The notes under the pieces: model-generated
The model's input: the letters and a program-made list of their open reading frames with translations, nothing else
The model's database searches: none
What the model was told of the DNA's origin: nothing
In this document: positions 51,455 to 58,111 of the stretch, piece by piece
Layout: each line of letters begins with the position of its first letter
Position numbering within the stretch: the first letter of the stretch is position 1
Assembly: GCF_041821065.1 (NCBI RefSeq)
Contig: NZ_JBGUAX010000003.1
Coordinates: 1-64,000, forward strand
Length of the DNA: 64,000 nt
Reading direction: 5' to 3'
DNA from: Egicoccus sp. AB-alg2
GTDB taxonomy: Bacteria; Actinomycetota; Nitriliruptoria; Nitriliruptorales; Nitriliruptoraceae
Made by a program: the position numbers and the translations under genes

Positions 51455-51982
51455 TCAGGCGGTGCGCTCCTCCGCGGCAGCCGCCGGGTCGGGCAGCACG
51501 GCGCCGTGGTTGCGCAGGCTGTCGAGCAGCTGTAGCGGCTCGTGACCGCTCGCGACGGCGACCGTGTGCAGGTCGTCGCGCCGCACGGTCAGCAGGGTGC
51601 CGTTGTGGTCGCCGCGGCGACGCCGGACGTCGGCGGCGAACCGCGCCGTGGCGCGCACCGGTGCGGGCGTGCCCTCGCCGTCCTCGAGGCGGCGCAGGTC
51701 GAGGACATGGCGCCGGACCGACGCCCCCGCGGCATGCTCGACGGGCTCCGGCCGGTGCACCGGGGTGAGGAGGTCCTGCAGGGGGACGCCGTAGAAGTGC
51801 GCGAGTTGCGCCAGCCGGGCGATCGTCAGATTGCGTTGCCCGCGTTCGTACGCGCCGACGGCGACGGCCTTCCACACGCCGTCACTACGGACTTCGACGT
51901 CCGCGAGCGACAGGCCCTGTTGGCGGCGGATGTCGCGCAGCCGGCAGCCGAGTCGTGCCGCAGGGGTCGAGGTGTCGCTCAT
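51455..51982 (-). CDS. BldD-like c-di-GMP-responsive transcription regulator
   Basis: 175 residues from ATG 51982. The N-terminal HTH (RLRDIRRQQGLSLADVEVRS, then WKAVAVGAYERGQR and FYGVPLQDLL) is the BldD core. The C-terminal domain has RGD-HNGTLLTV-RRDD (residues about 138-152), the exact RGD-X8-RxxD signature by which Streptomyces BldD binds tetrameric c-di-GMP. It overlaps the LPXTG gene upstream by four bases, so the two are co-translated. Its paralogue lies at 55681-56295. Confidence 0.9.
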   Translation of the reverse strand: MSDTSTPAARLGCRLRDIRRQQGLSLADVEVRSDGVWKAVAVGAYERGQRNLTIARLAQLAHFYGVPLQDLLTPVHRPEPVEHAAGASVRRHVLDLRRLEDGEGTPAPVRATARFAADVRRRRGDHNGTLLTVRRDDLHTVAVASGHEPLQLLDSLRNHGAVLPDPAAAAEERTA

Positions 51983-52914
51983 GCCGCACTCCCTCCAGCG
52001 CGTCGACGAAGACCTCGGCGTGCACGTCGAGCCGGGCTTGCGGCGCGCAGCAGTCCCAGGCCACCGGCAAGCGTCAGCAGGCCCGTGCCCGCCAGCCAGC
52101 GCGGCCGCTCGGCCGGGCCGGTCGCCGGCAGGGTCGGTGCACCGTCGCGCGAGTTGCCCTCGGCACCGACGGCGGGCGCGTCCGGCGACGCCGTCGGGTC
52201 GGCGGCCGGCAGGTCGGTCTCACCGCCGGCGTGGTCGTCGTTCGGCGACGCGGGCCGAGCACCGCACAGCGTCAGTTCGAGCACGTCGGTGGCGAAGCCG
52301 CGATAGGGGTCGGTCGCCTCTGCGACGTTGCCGTCGCGGTGGGTCAGCAACACCCGGGCGGCCTGGACCGCCGGATCGACCTCCCACTGCACGGCCACCC
52401 AGCCGGGCACGCCGGCGTCGCGTGTCTGCGCCGTGATGCTGACGGCGAACGGGTCACCCTCCACGGCGTCGGGCGTGAGCCGGGTCAGCGCGTGGCAGGA
52501 CCCGGCGGACGACCGGCCGGACGGACCGCCCCCCGGCTCGTCGGCCGCCTCGTCGGCCGGCTCGTCGGCCGGTTCGTCGGCCGACGGTGCCGGGCCTTCG
52601 GGGACCCCGGGCGCCGGCAGGTCGGTCACCGCGCCCGGCGGAGCGTCGGTTGGCGCGGCATCGTGGGCCATGGGGTCACCGGCCCCCGCCTCGCCGGTCA
52701 GGTCGCCGACGAGCCGGTCGTCGACCAGCCCCTCGTCGACGACCTCACCGCCGGGCGTCGTGTCGCCGTGGTCGGCCGCGGAGGAGGCCACGACGGACGC
52801 CGTCGCCTCGCGTGGTGCGTCGGCGGCCGCGGGAGCCACCAGGAGCGCCGAGAGACCCACCGTCAGGAGGGTGACGCGGCGCAGTGACGCGGATCGGGAT
52901 GTGAACGCGGCCAC
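51979..52914 (-). CDS. Secreted LPXTG-type surface protein
   Basis: 311 residues from ATG 52914. A signal peptide (about 1-31, TLLTVGLSALLVAPAAADAP) is followed by an Asp/Pro-rich stretch, then one domain of about 90 residues (SCHALTRLTPDAVEGDPFAVS to LELTLCG). The C-terminus has LPATG, a hydrophobic helix and an Arg-rich tail, so a sortase should link it to the wall. No family recognised for the middle domain. First gene of the two-gene unit with the BldD-like regulator. Confidence 0.82.
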   Translation of the reverse strand: MAAFTSRSASLRRVTLLTVGLSALLVAPAAADAPREATASVVASSAADHGDTTPGGEVVDEGLVDDRLVGDLTGEAGAGDPMAHDAAPTDAPPGAVTDLPAPGVPEGPAPSADEPADEPADEAADEPGGGPSGRSSAGSCHALTRLTPDAVEGDPFAVSITAQTRDAGVPGWVAVQWEVDPAVQAARVLLTHRDGNVAEATDPYRGFATDVLELTLCGARPASPNDDHAGGETDLPAADPTASPDAPAVGAEGNSRDGAPTLPATGPAERPRWLAGTGLLTLAGGLGLLRAASPARRARRGLRRRAGGSAA

Positions 52915-53024: not shown

Positions 53025-55286
53025 TCAGGCGTCGGCGTCGCGACGACGCGTCAGCCGGGACCCCAGTCCGAGCGCGGCCAGACCGGCGGCGAACAACGCG
53101 AGCAGCGAGGTGCCGGTGCGCGGCAGGTCGTGCGACACGCCGAGCACCTCCTCGTCGTCATCGTCGTCGTCCGGACGCGGCGCGGTCGGCGTGGACGGGG
53201 TGGGTTCGGGCTCGGGCTCCGGTTCGGGCTCGGGCTCCGGTTCGGGCTCCGGCTCCTCGACCGGCGGCTCGGGCAGGACGTCGTCGCACTCGTCCGGGAC
53301 GTCCTCGACGTCGAAGGTCAGCACCTGCTCGACGTCACCGAAGCGCACCGTCGCGGTGACCTCGGACCAGAACAGCTGGTCGTCACCGACCGGCCAGGGC
53401 AGCAGCGTCGTGCCGGCACCGATGGCGTGGCTCATCTCACCGCCGGCACCGTTGGTCAGGACGACCGTGCCCTCCTCGGCGCCCTGCAGGTCGGAGATCA
53501 CGATCTGCAGGTACTCCGTGAGGTCGACGCACGCCGCCGAACCGACGGCCACGAACGACACGGGCTCCGGGTCCGGGTCCGGATCGGGGTCCGGGTCAGG
53601 ATCGGGGTCCGGGTCGGGGTCCGGGTCGGGCAGACAGTCGGCCTCGAACTCACCCGTGGCGAGCACCTCGTCGCCTACGGAGACCGTCACCGTGGCCGAG
53701 CTTCCGGCCGCGAGCGCGACGACCACCTCGTCGGCGCCGCCGGCCGGGACGTCGACCTCCTCGAGGCCGTCGCCGTACTGGACGCGGAACCGCACGGTGC
53801 CGGAGGACCCGTCCGTGCCGTCGGAGGAAGCGCTGTTGTCCAGGTGCACGCGGACGCGGAACGCGCCGGTCGGCTCGTCGTCGACCGTGACGCACTCGCC
53901 CTCGAGCGAGGCCGCGGGCTCGACCACCGCGGGAACGGTCGGCTCGCAGCTGGCCGTGAACTCGCCGGAGGCGAGCGTCTGGCCCTTGGCCCGGATTTGC
54001 AGGTTCCAGGTCTCACCGTTGGGCACGTAGCCCGTCCACGAGTCCGTCTGCCCGGCCGCGACCTCGGTCGTGTCCAGGACGGTCTCGCCGCCCTCGGTGA
54101 TGCGCACGACGGTGAAGACGACGGCCCCCGACTCGATGGTGCCGTCGGTGGAGTCGCTGTTGTCGAAGGTGGCGGTCACGCGGGTGTCGTACTGCTGGTC
54201 GCCGTCGGCCGTGAGGCACTCGCCCTCGAGCGAGGCCGCCGGTTCGACGACCGCGGGGACAGGTGCGCAGTCGGCGGTGAACTCGCCGGAGGCGAGCGTC
54301 TGACCGCTGACGCGGACCTGCAGGCTCCAGGTCTCGCCATTGGGCACGTAACCGGTCCACGACGCGCTGGCGCCCGCGGCGACGGTCTTGGTGTGCAGGA
54401 TGGTCTCGCCGCCGTCACCGAGACGGACCACCTGGAACTCGACCGAGCCGGCGCCGGCGGTGGTGCCGTCGGTGGAGGCGGTGTTGTCGAGGGTGGCGGT
54501 CACGCGGGTGTCGTACTGGTGGTCACCGTCGGCCGTCAGGCACTTGCCCTTCAGCGAAGCCGCGGGTGCGACCTTCGGTGGCGTGCGCACGACGTGGTAG
54601 ATGCGGATGTGGCTGAACGCGGGCGTGTTGCCGTTGCCGACGGTCCAGCCGATCGTGCCCTGCGTGCCGGTGACCTTGCCGGAGTGGCTGTCACCCGCCT
54701 TGATGCAGAACTCGACGCTGATCGGGTCGCCGTTCACGTCGGTGAAGGAGACGGTCGGCCCGGAGTAGGCGATCTTGATCGTGACGCCGTCGATCACCAC
54801 GGAGCTGGTGTTCGGGCTGATCTCCGGCGCGTCCTGCGGGCAGTTGCCGTCGTAGCCCGGCAGTTCGATGGTCGTGGCCGGGAACGTGGTCGTGGAGGTC
54901 GCGGTGAAGGCAGCCGGCTCGTCACCGGCGGTCTCCTCGGCCTCCTCGGTGGCCTCGTCGGCCACGGTGTCGCCGTCCGACAGCTGGCCGTCCGCGTCGG
55001 CGTCGCCGTCCGACGTCTCGCCGTCGGTGTGGCCGGCCGACGTCTCGGTCGTCGCGTCGTCGGCCGCGGTGTCGCCGCCGTCGTCGGCGCTGGTCTCCTC
55101 GGCTGCGGGTGCCGCGAGCGCCGCGTCGGCGGGTTCGGTCTCGGTCTCGGTCGGTTGGTCGGCCCCCGTCTCTGCGCCGCCCTCGTCCGCGAGGGCCGCC
55201 AGCGACGACATGGGCAGGAGGATGCTCAGCACGAGCACCAGGCAGGCGGCGAGACGCAATGTTCGCCGTATCGATCGTCCCCTCAT
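53025..55286 (-). CDS. Large LPXTG surface protein with three repeat domains
   Basis: 753 residues from ATG 55286. Signal peptide about 1-34. An acidic Thr/Ala region runs to about 125, then a domain near 140-235. Three repeats of about 105 residues follow, each opening with AASLxGxC and ending with TLASGEFxAxC. A (DP)n spacer, another domain and an (EP)n spacer lead to LPRTG, a membrane helix and RRRDADA. The paired cysteines at repeat ends suggest one disulphide per domain, Ig-like in layout. The longer frame upstream is rejected because it runs through the conserved RNA leader. Confidence 0.85.
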   Translation of the reverse strand: MRGRSIRRTLRLAACLVLVLSILLPMSSLAALADEGGAETGADQPTETETEPADAALAAPAAEETSADDGGDTAADDATTETSAGHTDGETSDGDADADGQLSDGDTVADEATEEAEETAGDEPAAFTATSTTTFPATTIELPGYDGNCPQDAPEISPNTSSVVIDGVTIKIAYSGPTVSFTDVNGDPISVEFCIKAGDSHSGKVTGTQGTIGWTVGNGNTPAFSHIRIYHVVRTPPKVAPAASLKGKCLTADGDHQYDTRVTATLDNTASTDGTTAGAGSVEFQVVRLGDGGETILHTKTVAAGASASWTGYVPNGETWSLQVRVSGQTLASGEFTADCAPVPAVVEPAASLEGECLTADGDQQYDTRVTATFDNSDSTDGTIESGAVVFTVVRITEGGETVLDTTEVAAGQTDSWTGYVPNGETWNLQIRAKGQTLASGEFTASCEPTVPAVVEPAASLEGECVTVDDEPTGAFRVRVHLDNSASSDGTDGSSGTVRFRVQYGDGLEEVDVPAGGADEVVVALAAGSSATVTVSVGDEVLATGEFEADCLPDPDPDPDPDPDPDPDPDPDPEPVSFVAVGSAACVDLTEYLQIVISDLQGAEEGTVVLTNGAGGEMSHAIGAGTTLLPWPVGDDQLFWSEVTATVRFGDVEQVLTFDVEDVPDECDDVLPEPPVEEPEPEPEPEPEPEPEPEPTPSTPTAPRPDDDDDDEEVLGVSHDLPRTGTSLLALFAAGLAALGLGSRLTRRRDADA
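53204..53262 (-). repeat. Glu-Pro coding repeat
   Basis: Alternating GGTTCG/GGCTCC hexamer-like units encode an (EP)n wall-spanning spacer just before the sortase signal of the 753-residue protein. Confidence 0.75.
53566..53634 (-). repeat. Asp-Pro coding repeat
   Basis: Imperfect 6-bp units (GGGTCC/GGATCG type) encode about ten Asp-Pro pairs in the same surface protein. Likely a stiff, charged stalk and a slippage-prone tract. Confidence 0.8.
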
Positions 55287-55444
55287 GGGTCCAGAACCTT
55301 TGAGCTCGTGCGCCGACCCCGCGGGAGGGGGCCGACGCCTTCGTCGGTCCCGGGTCGGTCTCGCCACTAGCTCGCTCTGGACTCGGGCAGGCTTCGCCCG
55401 GGCGACCGTTGCAGTCCAAAGGTCAATGCGCCCCAGACGGTCAC
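55287..55444 (-). promoter_or_regulatory. Structured 5' leader RNA (copy B) of the 753-residue surface-protein gene
   Basis: Transcribed on the minus strand. Stem P1 pairs 55413-55421 with 55375-55383. The leader shares long blocks with copy A at 57929-58111: GTGACCGT, ACCUYUGGAC, CGGUCGCC and CCAGAGCGAGC-N-AGUGGCGAGACC. ACCUUU (complement of 55418-55423) is fully complementary to the Shine-Dalgarno AAAGGU (55296-55301). P1 formation and Shine-Dalgarno masking exclude each other. No riboswitch class I know matches. Confidence 0.72.
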
Positions 55445-55680
55445 GACGTGACCGCTCGCTGCGTGGTTGTTGCAGCGCTGTTGATCTTGCCCTGACCGTC
55501 ACGCTGGCGAGCGAGTTCTGCGCGTCCGGTTACGGCGAATGGGGCGTTCTCGCCCGTGCAGGCCCCTGGTCGCGCGATGTCTGCCCGTCTCGCGGCCGAA
55601 CGGCCTCTACGCAGCGTTCACGGCCGGTGACGCAGCGTTGCAGCCGTCGGCGGCTCCGATGTCTGGAGCGCGGTTCGGGT
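55445..55680. other. Intergenic stretch between leader B and the second BldD-like gene
   Basis: Holds the promoter region for the minus-strand 753-residue gene and two ACGCAGCGT boxes listed separately. I find no gene in it; the longer open frames are shadows. Confidence 0.5.
55609..55639. promoter_or_regulatory. Two tandem candidate BldD boxes
   Basis: ACGCAGCGTT occurs at 55609-55618 and 55630-55639, exactly 21 bp apart. Each contains ACnC(A/T)GnGT, the symmetric core of the published Streptomyces BldD site; only one flank base of the full site is met, in the second copy. They sit between a BldD-like gene and the surface gene it could regulate. Confidence 0.45.
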
Positions 55681-56295
55681 TCAGTCGGTGACGATGGCGC
55701 CCTGCTCGCGGAGCGCCGACAGGAGCGCCTCCGGGTCGTGGCCGACCGCGACCGCGATGGTGCGCAGGTCGTCGGCGCGGACGGTGAGGACCCGTCCGTT
55801 GTGGTCGCCACGTTGGAGGCGGATGTGCTCGGCGAACCGGGCGACCGCCTGCAGGGCGATCGGGTCGAGCGCCTCGTGGGCGTCGTCGTCGAGCCGTCGC
55901 AGGTCGAGGGTCACCCGACCGGAGCCCCGTGCGTCGGCCTCGTGACCTGAAGGCGGCGGAGCATGGGTCGCGCCGTGCGGCTCGGGCAACAGACTGGACA
56001 GCGGCACGCCGTAGAAGGCGGCCAGGCCCGCGAGGCGCGAGATCGTGACGGCACGGTCACCGCGTTCGTACGCCCCGACCACGACGGCCTTCCAGTGGCC
56101 GGCGCTGCGTTCCTCCACTTCGGCGAGGGACAACCCCTGCTGCCGACGGATGTCGCGAAGCCGCTCACCGACGAGATTGCCCGTGGGTCGGGCCGTCGAG
56201 GACACGACCTCGGAGGGGGCGAGGCCGACATCCGCTCCGAGGGCGAGCCGCACGGCGACGTCGACGTCGCCGGCGTCCACGACGGTGTCGCTCAC
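55681..56295 (-). CDS. Second BldD-like c-di-GMP-responsive regulator
   Basis: 204 residues from GTG 56295 (GGGAG four to six bases upstream). An N-terminal extension of about 35 residues precedes the HTH (ERLRDIRRQQGLSLAEVEER, WKAVVVGAYERGDRAVTI). The C-terminal domain ends with RGD-HNGRVLTV-RADD, again the BldD c-di-GMP signature. Close to the regulator at 51455-51982 across its whole length. It follows an LPXTG gene by 121 bases, repeating that arrangement. Confidence 0.9.
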   Translation of the reverse strand: MSDTVVDAGDVDVAVRLALGADVGLAPSEVVSSTARPTGNLVGERLRDIRRQQGLSLAEVEERSAGHWKAVVVGAYERGDRAVTISRLAGLAAFYGVPLSSLLPEPHGATHAPPPSGHEADARGSGRVTLDLRRLDDDAHEALDPIALQAVARFAEHIRLQRGDHNGRVLTVRADDLRTIAVAVGHDPEALLSALREQGAIVTD

Positions 56296-56376
56296 GGGGT
56301 CTCCCGGTCGGTGGTCGCTCGAAGTCAAGCCGTTCCGTGGCCGGCATGCGTGAGAACGAGCGGAACGGGTGCCGCC

Positions 56377-56404
56377 GGTGGCGGAGCCGTACGGTTCCGC
56401 CACC
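56377..56404 (-). terminator. Hairpin between the LPXTG gene and the second BldD-like gene
   Basis: GGTGGCGGA (56377-56385) pairs perfectly with 56396-56404 and can extend inward. It may limit read-through from the surface gene into the regulator gene. No U-run. Confidence 0.5.
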
Positions 56405-56416
56405 AGCGGGGACCTG

Positions 56417-57928
56417 TCAGCTGCGCCGGTACAGCAGGCCCGCACCGGTCAGCAGGCCGAAGAGCCCGGCCGCGAGGAGGCCGCCCAGTGGCAGACCCGT
56501 ACGCGGCAGCTGGCCGGCCGCGGTGCGCGTCGGCACGGCGACCGTCGGCGTCGGCCGGCGGTCGACGACCACCGGGAGTGCCGTCTCCGGCTCACGCTCG
56601 TCGGGAGCGTCGGTGCCGGGTCGGTTCGTGTCATCGTCCTCGTCGACGACCTCGTCGAGGACCTCGTCGCAGAGCGCGAGGACCTCGTCGACGTCCAGCG
56701 TGACCAGGTTGCTGCGGACGTCGTCGACCGTCACCCACACCACGAACGTGGGCAGGTCCAGGTCGTCCGCGCGGGGCCAGGCGAACGGCACGGCCTCGCC
56801 GAGCTCGACGTCGGTCGACCAGAACGGAGCGGCGGCGCCGCTGTGGGCGACGTGCAGCTGCGCGGCGGTCGTGTCGAGGTGGCGTCCCTGGGCGGTCACC
56901 ACGAAGCCGGCGGCACCCTCCGGGCAGACCACGCTCACCTCGAGGTCGACGCCGGCCTCAGGGCCCTCGTCGCCGTCGTCGTCGCCGGGCTGGTCGCCGT
57001 CGTCGTCGCCGGGCTGGTCACCGTTGTCGTCGCCGGGCTGGTCGCCGTCGTCGTCGCCGGGCTGGTCGCCGTCGTCGTCGCCGGGCTGGTCGCCGTCGTC
57101 GTCGCCGGGCTGGTCGCCGTTGTCGTCGCCGGGCTCGTCGCCCGTCACGTCACAGTCGTCGCGGTACGTGTCGCCGCCGGCCTTCACGTCGACCTGTTCG
57201 CCGTCGACCTTCAACCGGACGGTCTGCTTCCCGAAGGCCGTGAAGAACTCGGTCGTCGAGGCGGCAGCGACGGTGCCCTCGCCGGTGATGGCGGTGCCGA
57301 CCACCTCGTACGTGAAGGTCACCTCGACGTCGTTCGGGTTGCTGACGCGCCAGCGGACCTTGCCGTCGCGCTCCTCGACGTCCTCAGGGCACTCCTGCAT
57401 GAAGGTCAGGCGCAGCGGCGCGGGCTTCTCGTCGTCACCCGGGTCGTCGCCCTTGTCGTCGCCCTTGTCGTCGCCGTTGTCGTCGCCGTTGTCGTCGCCG
57501 TTGTCGTCGCCCTCGTCGTCGCCGGTCCCCTCGCAGTTGCTGATCGTCAGCACGGCGTTGCCGGAGCCCGTGTCGCCGGTGTAGGAGACCGAAGCGTCGA
57601 TGTCCGCTGCCGAGCTCGCGCCGGGGGTCGAGAAGTGCACCGCGCCGACGTGCTTGGTCGGCTGGTAGGTCGTCCCGTTGAACGTCAACTGCGCGCTGTC
57701 CACGGATCCGGCCGTGAAGACCCAGTGGATACCGTCGGGACACGGCAGGTTGTCGCTGCCGTTGCCGGTCCACGCGATGGTGCCGCCGTCGGCGGCGGGC
57801 GCGTCCCTCTCCGTGCCGTGGTCGTCCGCGTGTGCTGCCGCTGGTACGAGGGCGGGCGCGAAAGCCGCCATCACCAGCGCCAGCAACGCGACGAGGGAGG
57901 CGGCGTGCCTCCGTCGAATGTGCGTCAT
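56417..57928 (-). CDS. LPXTG surface protein with acidic Gly-Asp repeats
   Basis: 503 residues from ATG 57928 (Shine-Dalgarno AGAGG seven bases upstream). The signal peptide (about 1-33) ends AAAHA. Next come a domain (IAWTGNGSDNLPCPDG to LTISNCEG), a DDxG repeat tract, a second domain (LTFMQECPEDVEER to YRDDCDV), seven GDQPGDDD repeats, a third domain (VSVVCPEGAAG to VLALCDEV), and LPRTG with a membrane helix and RRS tail. Each domain holds one Cys pair. The extreme Asp content would suit high salt or calcium binding; that is inference. Confidence 0.84.
   Translation of the reverse strand: MTHIRRRHAASLVALLALVMAAFAPALVPAAAHADDHGTERDAPAADGGTIAWTGNGSDNLPCPDGIHWVFTAGSVDSAQLTFNGTTYQPTKHVGAVHFSTPGASSAADIDASVSYTGDTGSGNAVLTISNCEGTGDDEGDDNGDDNGDDNGDDKGDDKGDDPGDDEKPAPLRLTFMQECPEDVEERDGKVRWRVSNPNDVEVTFTYEVVGTAITGEGTVAAASTTEFFTAFGKQTVRLKVDGEQVDVKAGGDTYRDDCDVTGDEPGDDNGDQPGDDDGDQPGDDDGDQPGDDDGDQPGDDNGDQPGDDDGDQPGDDDGDEGPEAGVDLEVSVVCPEGAAGFVVTAQGRHLDTTAAQLHVAHSGAAAPFWSTDVELGEAVPFAWPRADDLDLPTFVVWVTVDDVRSNLVTLDVDEVLALCDEVLDEVVDEDDDTNRPGTDAPDEREPETALPVVVDRRPTPTVAVPTRTAAGQLPRTGLPLGGLLAAGLFGLLTGAGLLYRRS
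56971..57138 (-). repeat. 24-bp coding tandem repeat, about seven units
   Basis: Near-exact 24-bp units encode GDQPGDD(D/N). Units differ at few positions, mostly in one codon. High identity at DNA level suggests recent copy-number change. Confidence 0.9.
57431..57523 (-). repeat. 12-bp coding tandem repeat, about seven units
   Basis: GTCGTCGCC(C/G)TT units on the plus strand encode GDD(N/K) on the minus strand within the same surface protein, a second and separate spacer. Confidence 0.85.
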
Positions 57929-58111
57929 GCCAGAACCTCTCGAGCGTCGGCGTCGACTCCCGGGGAGCCGACGCGCTGGTCGGTTCCGGGGTCGGTCTCG
58001 CCACTCGCTCGCTCTGGACCCGAGGACGGCAGCCGGCGCCCTGTACGCGCCCACTGCCGGCTCCGGCGACCGCTTGTTGGTCCAGAGGTCCCTGCGTCCC
58101 CGTACGGTCAC
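57929..58111 (-). promoter_or_regulatory. Structured 5' leader RNA (copy A) of the 503-residue surface-protein gene
   Basis: The counterpart of 55287-55444. P1 pairs 58079-58087 with 58012-58020. ACCUCU (complement of 58084-58089) is fully complementary to the Shine-Dalgarno AGAGGU (57935-57940). Compared with copy B, both strands changed together in P1 (C-G to U-A at the inner end) and in the anti-Shine-Dalgarno pairing, so the structure is supported by covariation between just two sequences. CGGUCGCC could also pair with GGCGAGACCG as a pseudoknot. Confidence 0.74.

Follow-up and report, generated by a model that had tools for sequence, protein, structure and literature searches.

Two surface-protein genes in a 64,000-nucleotide stretch of Egicoccus sp. 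AB-alg2 (the window; contig NZ_JBGUAX010000003.1, positions 1 to 64,000) are each preceded by a leader with the same structured core. This raises the question to which class of RNA the leaders belong, how they act on translation and which signal they read.

Class and distribution of the leaders

Leader A (57929-58111) precedes gene A (56417..57928, ATG at 57928), which encodes a secreted protein that belongs to no Pfam family and carries an LPRTG sortase-type anchor at its C-terminus. Leader B (55287-55444) precedes gene B (53025..55286, ATG at 55286), coding for a secreted repeat protein that also ends in an LPRTG sortase-type anchor. Leaders and genes are all on the minus strand, and the genome has six sortase-domain matches. 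The blocks GACCUYUGGAC, CGGUCGCC, the CCAGAGCGAGC.AGUGGCGAGACCGACC core and a GCGUCGG hairpin are common to A and B. The positions, the strand, the common core and the LPXTG surface-protein gene behind each leader had been described in an earlier reading of the DNA (the sequence-only reading) and were confirmed.

The class was assigned with Infernal against Rfam 15. Both leaders contained a match to RF03169, the c-di-GMP-II-GAG family, at 57981..58108 for aptamer A (minus strand, 55.0 bits) and at 55344..55441 for aptamer B (minus strand, 55.2 bits), well above the cut-off of 40 bits. The matches were full-length and covered the model positions 1-86 of 86. The sequence-only reading had recognised no known class, had excluded c-di-GMP II and had proposed a candidate new riboregulator, to be given up if, among other outcomes, Rfam gave a match. 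Since such a match was found, and to a named variant of exactly the c-di-GMP II family, a new riboswitch class is ruled out, and leaders A and B are almost certainly new members of the known c-di-GMP-II-GAG class. The proposal that the leaders are riboswitches acting in cis, with a pseudoknot in the ligand pocket and an expression platform that works on translation, was upheld, and we regard translation as very likely the level at which these leaders act.

Aptamer A comprises P1, P2, the pseudoknot CGGUCGCC/GGCGAGACCG and an extra variable hairpin after the first pseudoknot strand. With P1, P2, the pseudoknot core and the position in the 5' leader, A and B resemble RF03169 throughout; they differ from it, as do many Nitriliruptoraceae copies, in the extra hairpin, which the model treats as an insert. 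Several non-standard pairs occur in the outer P1 of both in the Rfam alignment. The distance from the aptamer end to the ATG is 52 bases in A and 57 in B, which places the leaders near the start codon. Judged by our own reading of the family name and the consensus, both carry the GAG pocket triplet before ACCG, within GGCGAGACCG. The canonical c-di-GMP-II family RF01786, of the same clan, gave weak matches, all below its cut-off of 53.5 bits, with B (35.1 bits) and with two GAA-type copies of the genome (42.6 and 38.4 bits); aptamer A was not among the matches listed. At the place where the canonical pocket has A69, A and B have the GAG triplet.

These two GAA copies lie on the plus strand of the same contig, at 168367-168452 and 170057-170142, and also match RF03169, so that the genome has four copies, two of the GAG and two of the GAA type. 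The family was found in 48 of 120 relatives, mostly Nitriliruptoraceae MAGs (47 of the 48 above the cut-off), and was absent from all 14 control genomes searched. A scan of named genomes with the core pattern found it in Nitriliruptoraceae/Nitriliruptorales, Frankiales, other Actinomycetota and a few Chloroflexi, all of them MAGs. Nearly all homologous aptamers are followed by a gene for a signal-peptide protein, many with LPXTG tails, and GAG and GAA copies precede the same kind of gene.

At two loci, L027 (G008:C243:3014-3205) and L024 (G004:C11:90598-90782), a single secreted-protein gene is preceded by two aptamers, one of the GAA type directly followed by one of the GAG type. This tandem, present in two genera, may be either a pseudo-cooperative or a two-input arrangement. 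Tandem c-di-GMP-II riboswitches with the same aptamer fold and surface-anchored targets are known from Paraclostridium (PMC9481103); there the hosts are low-GC Gram-positive bacteria, the aptamer is canonical and a BldD gene was not reported.

Pairing of the Shine-Dalgarno region

The Shine-Dalgarno (SD) regions are AGAGGUUCUGG for gene A (57930..57940, minus strand) and AAAGGUUCUGG for gene B (55291..55301, minus strand). To find the strand that competes for them, 101 homologous aptamers were collected together with the DNA that follows them, and the leaders with a credible start were retained. The pairing energy of an RNA region with its own partner was then compared with that of swapped partners from other leaders. 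The set was thinned to 41 leaders at <80% identity and further to 30 and 17; the strictest thinning (65% identity, tail and spacer) left 11 leaders and had little power. The P2 stem gave a z of -12.4 (41 leaders) and the P1 stem -3.6, -3.0 and -2.9 (41, 30 and 17 leaders), which shows that the method detects true stems.

According to the sequence-only reading, the 5' strand of P2 is a covarying anti-SD that is exchanged between the SD and the P2 3' strand. The strand reads ACCUCU in A (58084..58089, minus strand) and ACCUUU in B (55418..55423, minus strand). It is indeed perfectly complementary to the SD of its own gene, AGAGGU in A and AAAGGU in B, and the pairing is retained in the A orthologues of two relatives, G001 and G002. 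Predicted folds paired the SD to this strand at 78% in A and at 0.64 in the A orthologue of G001. Across the homologues the covariation was not observed: one comparison of cognate with swapped partners gave p = 0.07, and the thinned sets gave z -0.5 (41 leaders), -0.7 and +0.2. The pairing is also broken in the nearest B orthologues, with ACCUCU facing AAAGGG (G002:194566) and AUCCCU facing AAGGUC (G001:5536). The base change in P2 that had been called compensated between A and B is one-sided (C-G to U-G); one other P2 pair went from C-G to U-A, a true compensation. P2 itself is long and stable, with a mean cognate energy of about -17 kcal/mol, and would hardly be displaced by an SD hybrid. 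The P2 5' strand was thus rejected as an anti-SD feature of the family, and we consider it unlikely to be the switching strand. Because the folds of leader A also favour it, the SD may have different competitors in different leaders.

The P1 3' strand is the better-supported candidate. It reads CCGGAACC in A (57982..57989, minus strand) and CCGGGACC in B (55346..55353, minus strand), and in each leader it can form 8 pairs with GGUUCUGG of the SD region. The pairing of the consensus CCGGRACC with GGUUCUGG is kept in both A orthologues and in the B orthologue of G002. The cognate signal had z -3.3, -3.0 and -3.3 (41, 30 and 17 leaders) and equals the P1 stem in strength; because it was selected from seven regions, in two sets, its p of about 0.001 becomes about 0.01 when corrected for this choice. 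The same strand also gave a weaker signal with the initial 20 bases downstream (z -2.5, 41 leaders), which faded with thinning, so relatedness contributes something. Other candidates for the anti-SD, namely the P1 5' strand, the pseudoknot strands PK1 and PK2 and the first downstream bases, gave a weaker cognate signal or none and were rejected.

From the cognate pairing across homologues we propose the following switch. In the free RNA the P1 3' strand would pair with the SD region and block translation. On ligand binding the pseudoknotted aptamer would close, P1 would regain its 3' strand and the SD would be exposed. If P1 and the SD compete for this strand, closure of the aptamer by its ligand should release the SD and turn the surface-protein genes ON at translation, a direction to which the evidence leans slightly. 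The predicted SD accessibility rose when the aptamer was sequestered in 40 of 51 main-type leaders and in 10 of 11 leaders with P1 = GGUGUG, a gain that is partly trivial because the removal of partners raises accessibility anyway.

The GGUGUG-type leaders have a clear anti-SD, CCUUCCC, which lies where P1 ends on its 3' side and pairs with the SD GGGAAGG; in the GAA-type copies the same strand, next to P1, forms this pairing. Genome G010 has CCUUUCC and GGAAAGG instead, a compensated change. As only two of the CCUUCCC bases overlap P1, the switching direction is less certain in the GGUGUG type. The two GAA copies of the genome (L035) each lie before a secreted protein and have the SD-hiding hairpin CCUUCCC/GGGAAGG adjoining P1; a CACACC repeat between SD and ATG duplicates their P1 3' strand.

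The leaders could also act in the opposite direction, if the ligand-bound aptamer favours a hairpin further downstream in which the SD is hidden, or at the level of transcription termination or mRNA decay. The conserved GCGUCGG hairpin between aptamer and SD would suit such an OFF switch, and some distant low-GC homologues have terminator-like hairpins with U-runs after the aptamer, which indicates that the platforms differ by lineage. After A or B, however, no U-run terminator was found, and the SD is predicted to be paired less often once the aptamer is out of play. We therefore regard an OFF switch or a non-translational mechanism as improbable for A and B.

BldD-family genes beside the aptamers

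Between the two riboswitch units lies a gene for a BldD-family regulator (55681..56295, minus strand). Its product has an N-terminal HTH (PF01381/PF13560) and a BldD-like_C domain (PF21179, E 2e-15), all above the cut-off, and matched the PDB chains 5khd and 4oay of BldD-c-di-GMP complexes. The RXD-X8-RXXD signature for c-di-GMP, which was defined for Streptomyces BldD (PMC4151990), is intact as RGD-X8-RADD (RGDHNGRVLTVRADD). A second BldD-family gene (51455..51982, minus strand; PF21179, E 1e-12) encodes RGD-X8-RRDD, and its PDB matches were 2ewt, 2mc4 and others. For both proteins the best PDB matches were the DNA-binding and the c-di-GMP-bound C-terminal domains of BldD. Both genes come after LPXTG-type surface genes; the second adjoins a third secreted protein of this type (LPATG; 51979..52914, minus strand), before which no aptamer was detected in the Rfam search of the window. 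The gene between A and B thus shares the HTH and the C-terminal signature with Streptomyces BldD, and its product is a predicted c-di-GMP receptor. Unlike in Streptomyces (PMC4151990), several paralogues occur per genome, some beside riboswitch-controlled surface genes, and for these the binding of c-di-GMP is predicted from the sequence.

The neighbourhood was searched for in 37 genomes, from which 76 BldD-like places were used. Of these, 14 have an RF03169 aptamer at a distance of up to 5 kb; the 14 pairs come from 11 genomes, with gene and aptamer always on the same strand, against an expectation of about 0.4 pairs. The aptamers concerned are GAG-type in all 11 genomes but G035, which has the GAACCC type. 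On named contigs the arrangement was found in Nitriliruptoraceae; it was not found on those of Frankiales or Chloroflexi. A BldD-type repressor gene beside the aptamers, here and in many relatives, is the less expected part of these results. No paper on a BldD gene adjoining a c-di-GMP riboswitch came up in our literature search, which is weak evidence that none exists.

Ligand of the GAG-type aptamers

The ligand contacts in the c-di-GMP-II structure include C68, A69, A70, C71, C72 and G73 (PMC7288161). By our own mapping onto the homologues, the GAG type would have a G at the place of A69, and the ligand may therefore differ. Among the 101 hits, GAG stood before ACC in 46 (before ACCG in 44) and GAA before ACCG in 22. 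The signal of the GAG variant could accordingly be other than c-di-GMP within the same riboswitch class, for example another cyclic dinucleotide. The two GAA copies of the genome keep the A at the changed contact, and the GAA-GAG tandems in G008 and G004 would fit a pair of distinct inputs. That the GAG variants might recognise other signals or a changed ligand was reportedly proposed in the publication that introduced them.

Several observations point to c-di-GMP instead. The adjoining BldD has an intact c-di-GMP signature, the aptamers with a BldD neighbour are almost all GAG-type, and the target genes of both types are of one kind. GGDEF proteins were found in all 48 aptamer-bearing genomes, and the aptamer was absent from all six genomes of the same family that lack GGDEF; these six come from just two genera, so the correlation is suggestive only. 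Enzymes of the Hypr type, which make cGAMP, have a Ser where the usual GGDEF has an Asp. The GGDEF active sites that were readable in the genome have Asp at this base-specificity place, and none of the Hypr type was seen among them. The genome also encodes EAL proteins and has a c-di-GMP-I riboswitch match on another contig (G000:C2:98548-98640, minus strand, 40.3 bits, cut-off 35). We thus consider c-di-GMP the probable ligand of aptamers A and B and another signal for the GAG variant rather unlikely. Less likely still is a conserved Nitriliruptorales cassette in which an RNA and a protein receptor share one locus, the GAG aptamer reads a non-c-di-GMP signal and BldD responds to the same or a related cyclic dinucleotide, so that two inputs are integrated and the surface-protein output is set jointly.

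With BldD and its intact signature between the units, c-di-GMP is probably sensed at two points of this locus, at a promoter through BldD and at the ribosome-binding site through the riboswitch. The whole explanation, that A and B are c-di-GMP-II-GAG riboswitches in which the P1 3' strand blocks the SD, the ligand turns the genes ON and c-di-GMP is read twice, is the one we favour, with some reserve.

The neighbourhood of aptamer, surface gene and bldD merits the attention of specialists, as it points to c-di-GMP for this aptamer variant. c-di-GMP is the first-choice candidate ligand because a BldD gene is conserved next to the aptamers and GGDEF enzymes occur together with them. If this is true, one second messenger would act on a single surface-protein locus by two routes, a transcription factor and a riboswitch.
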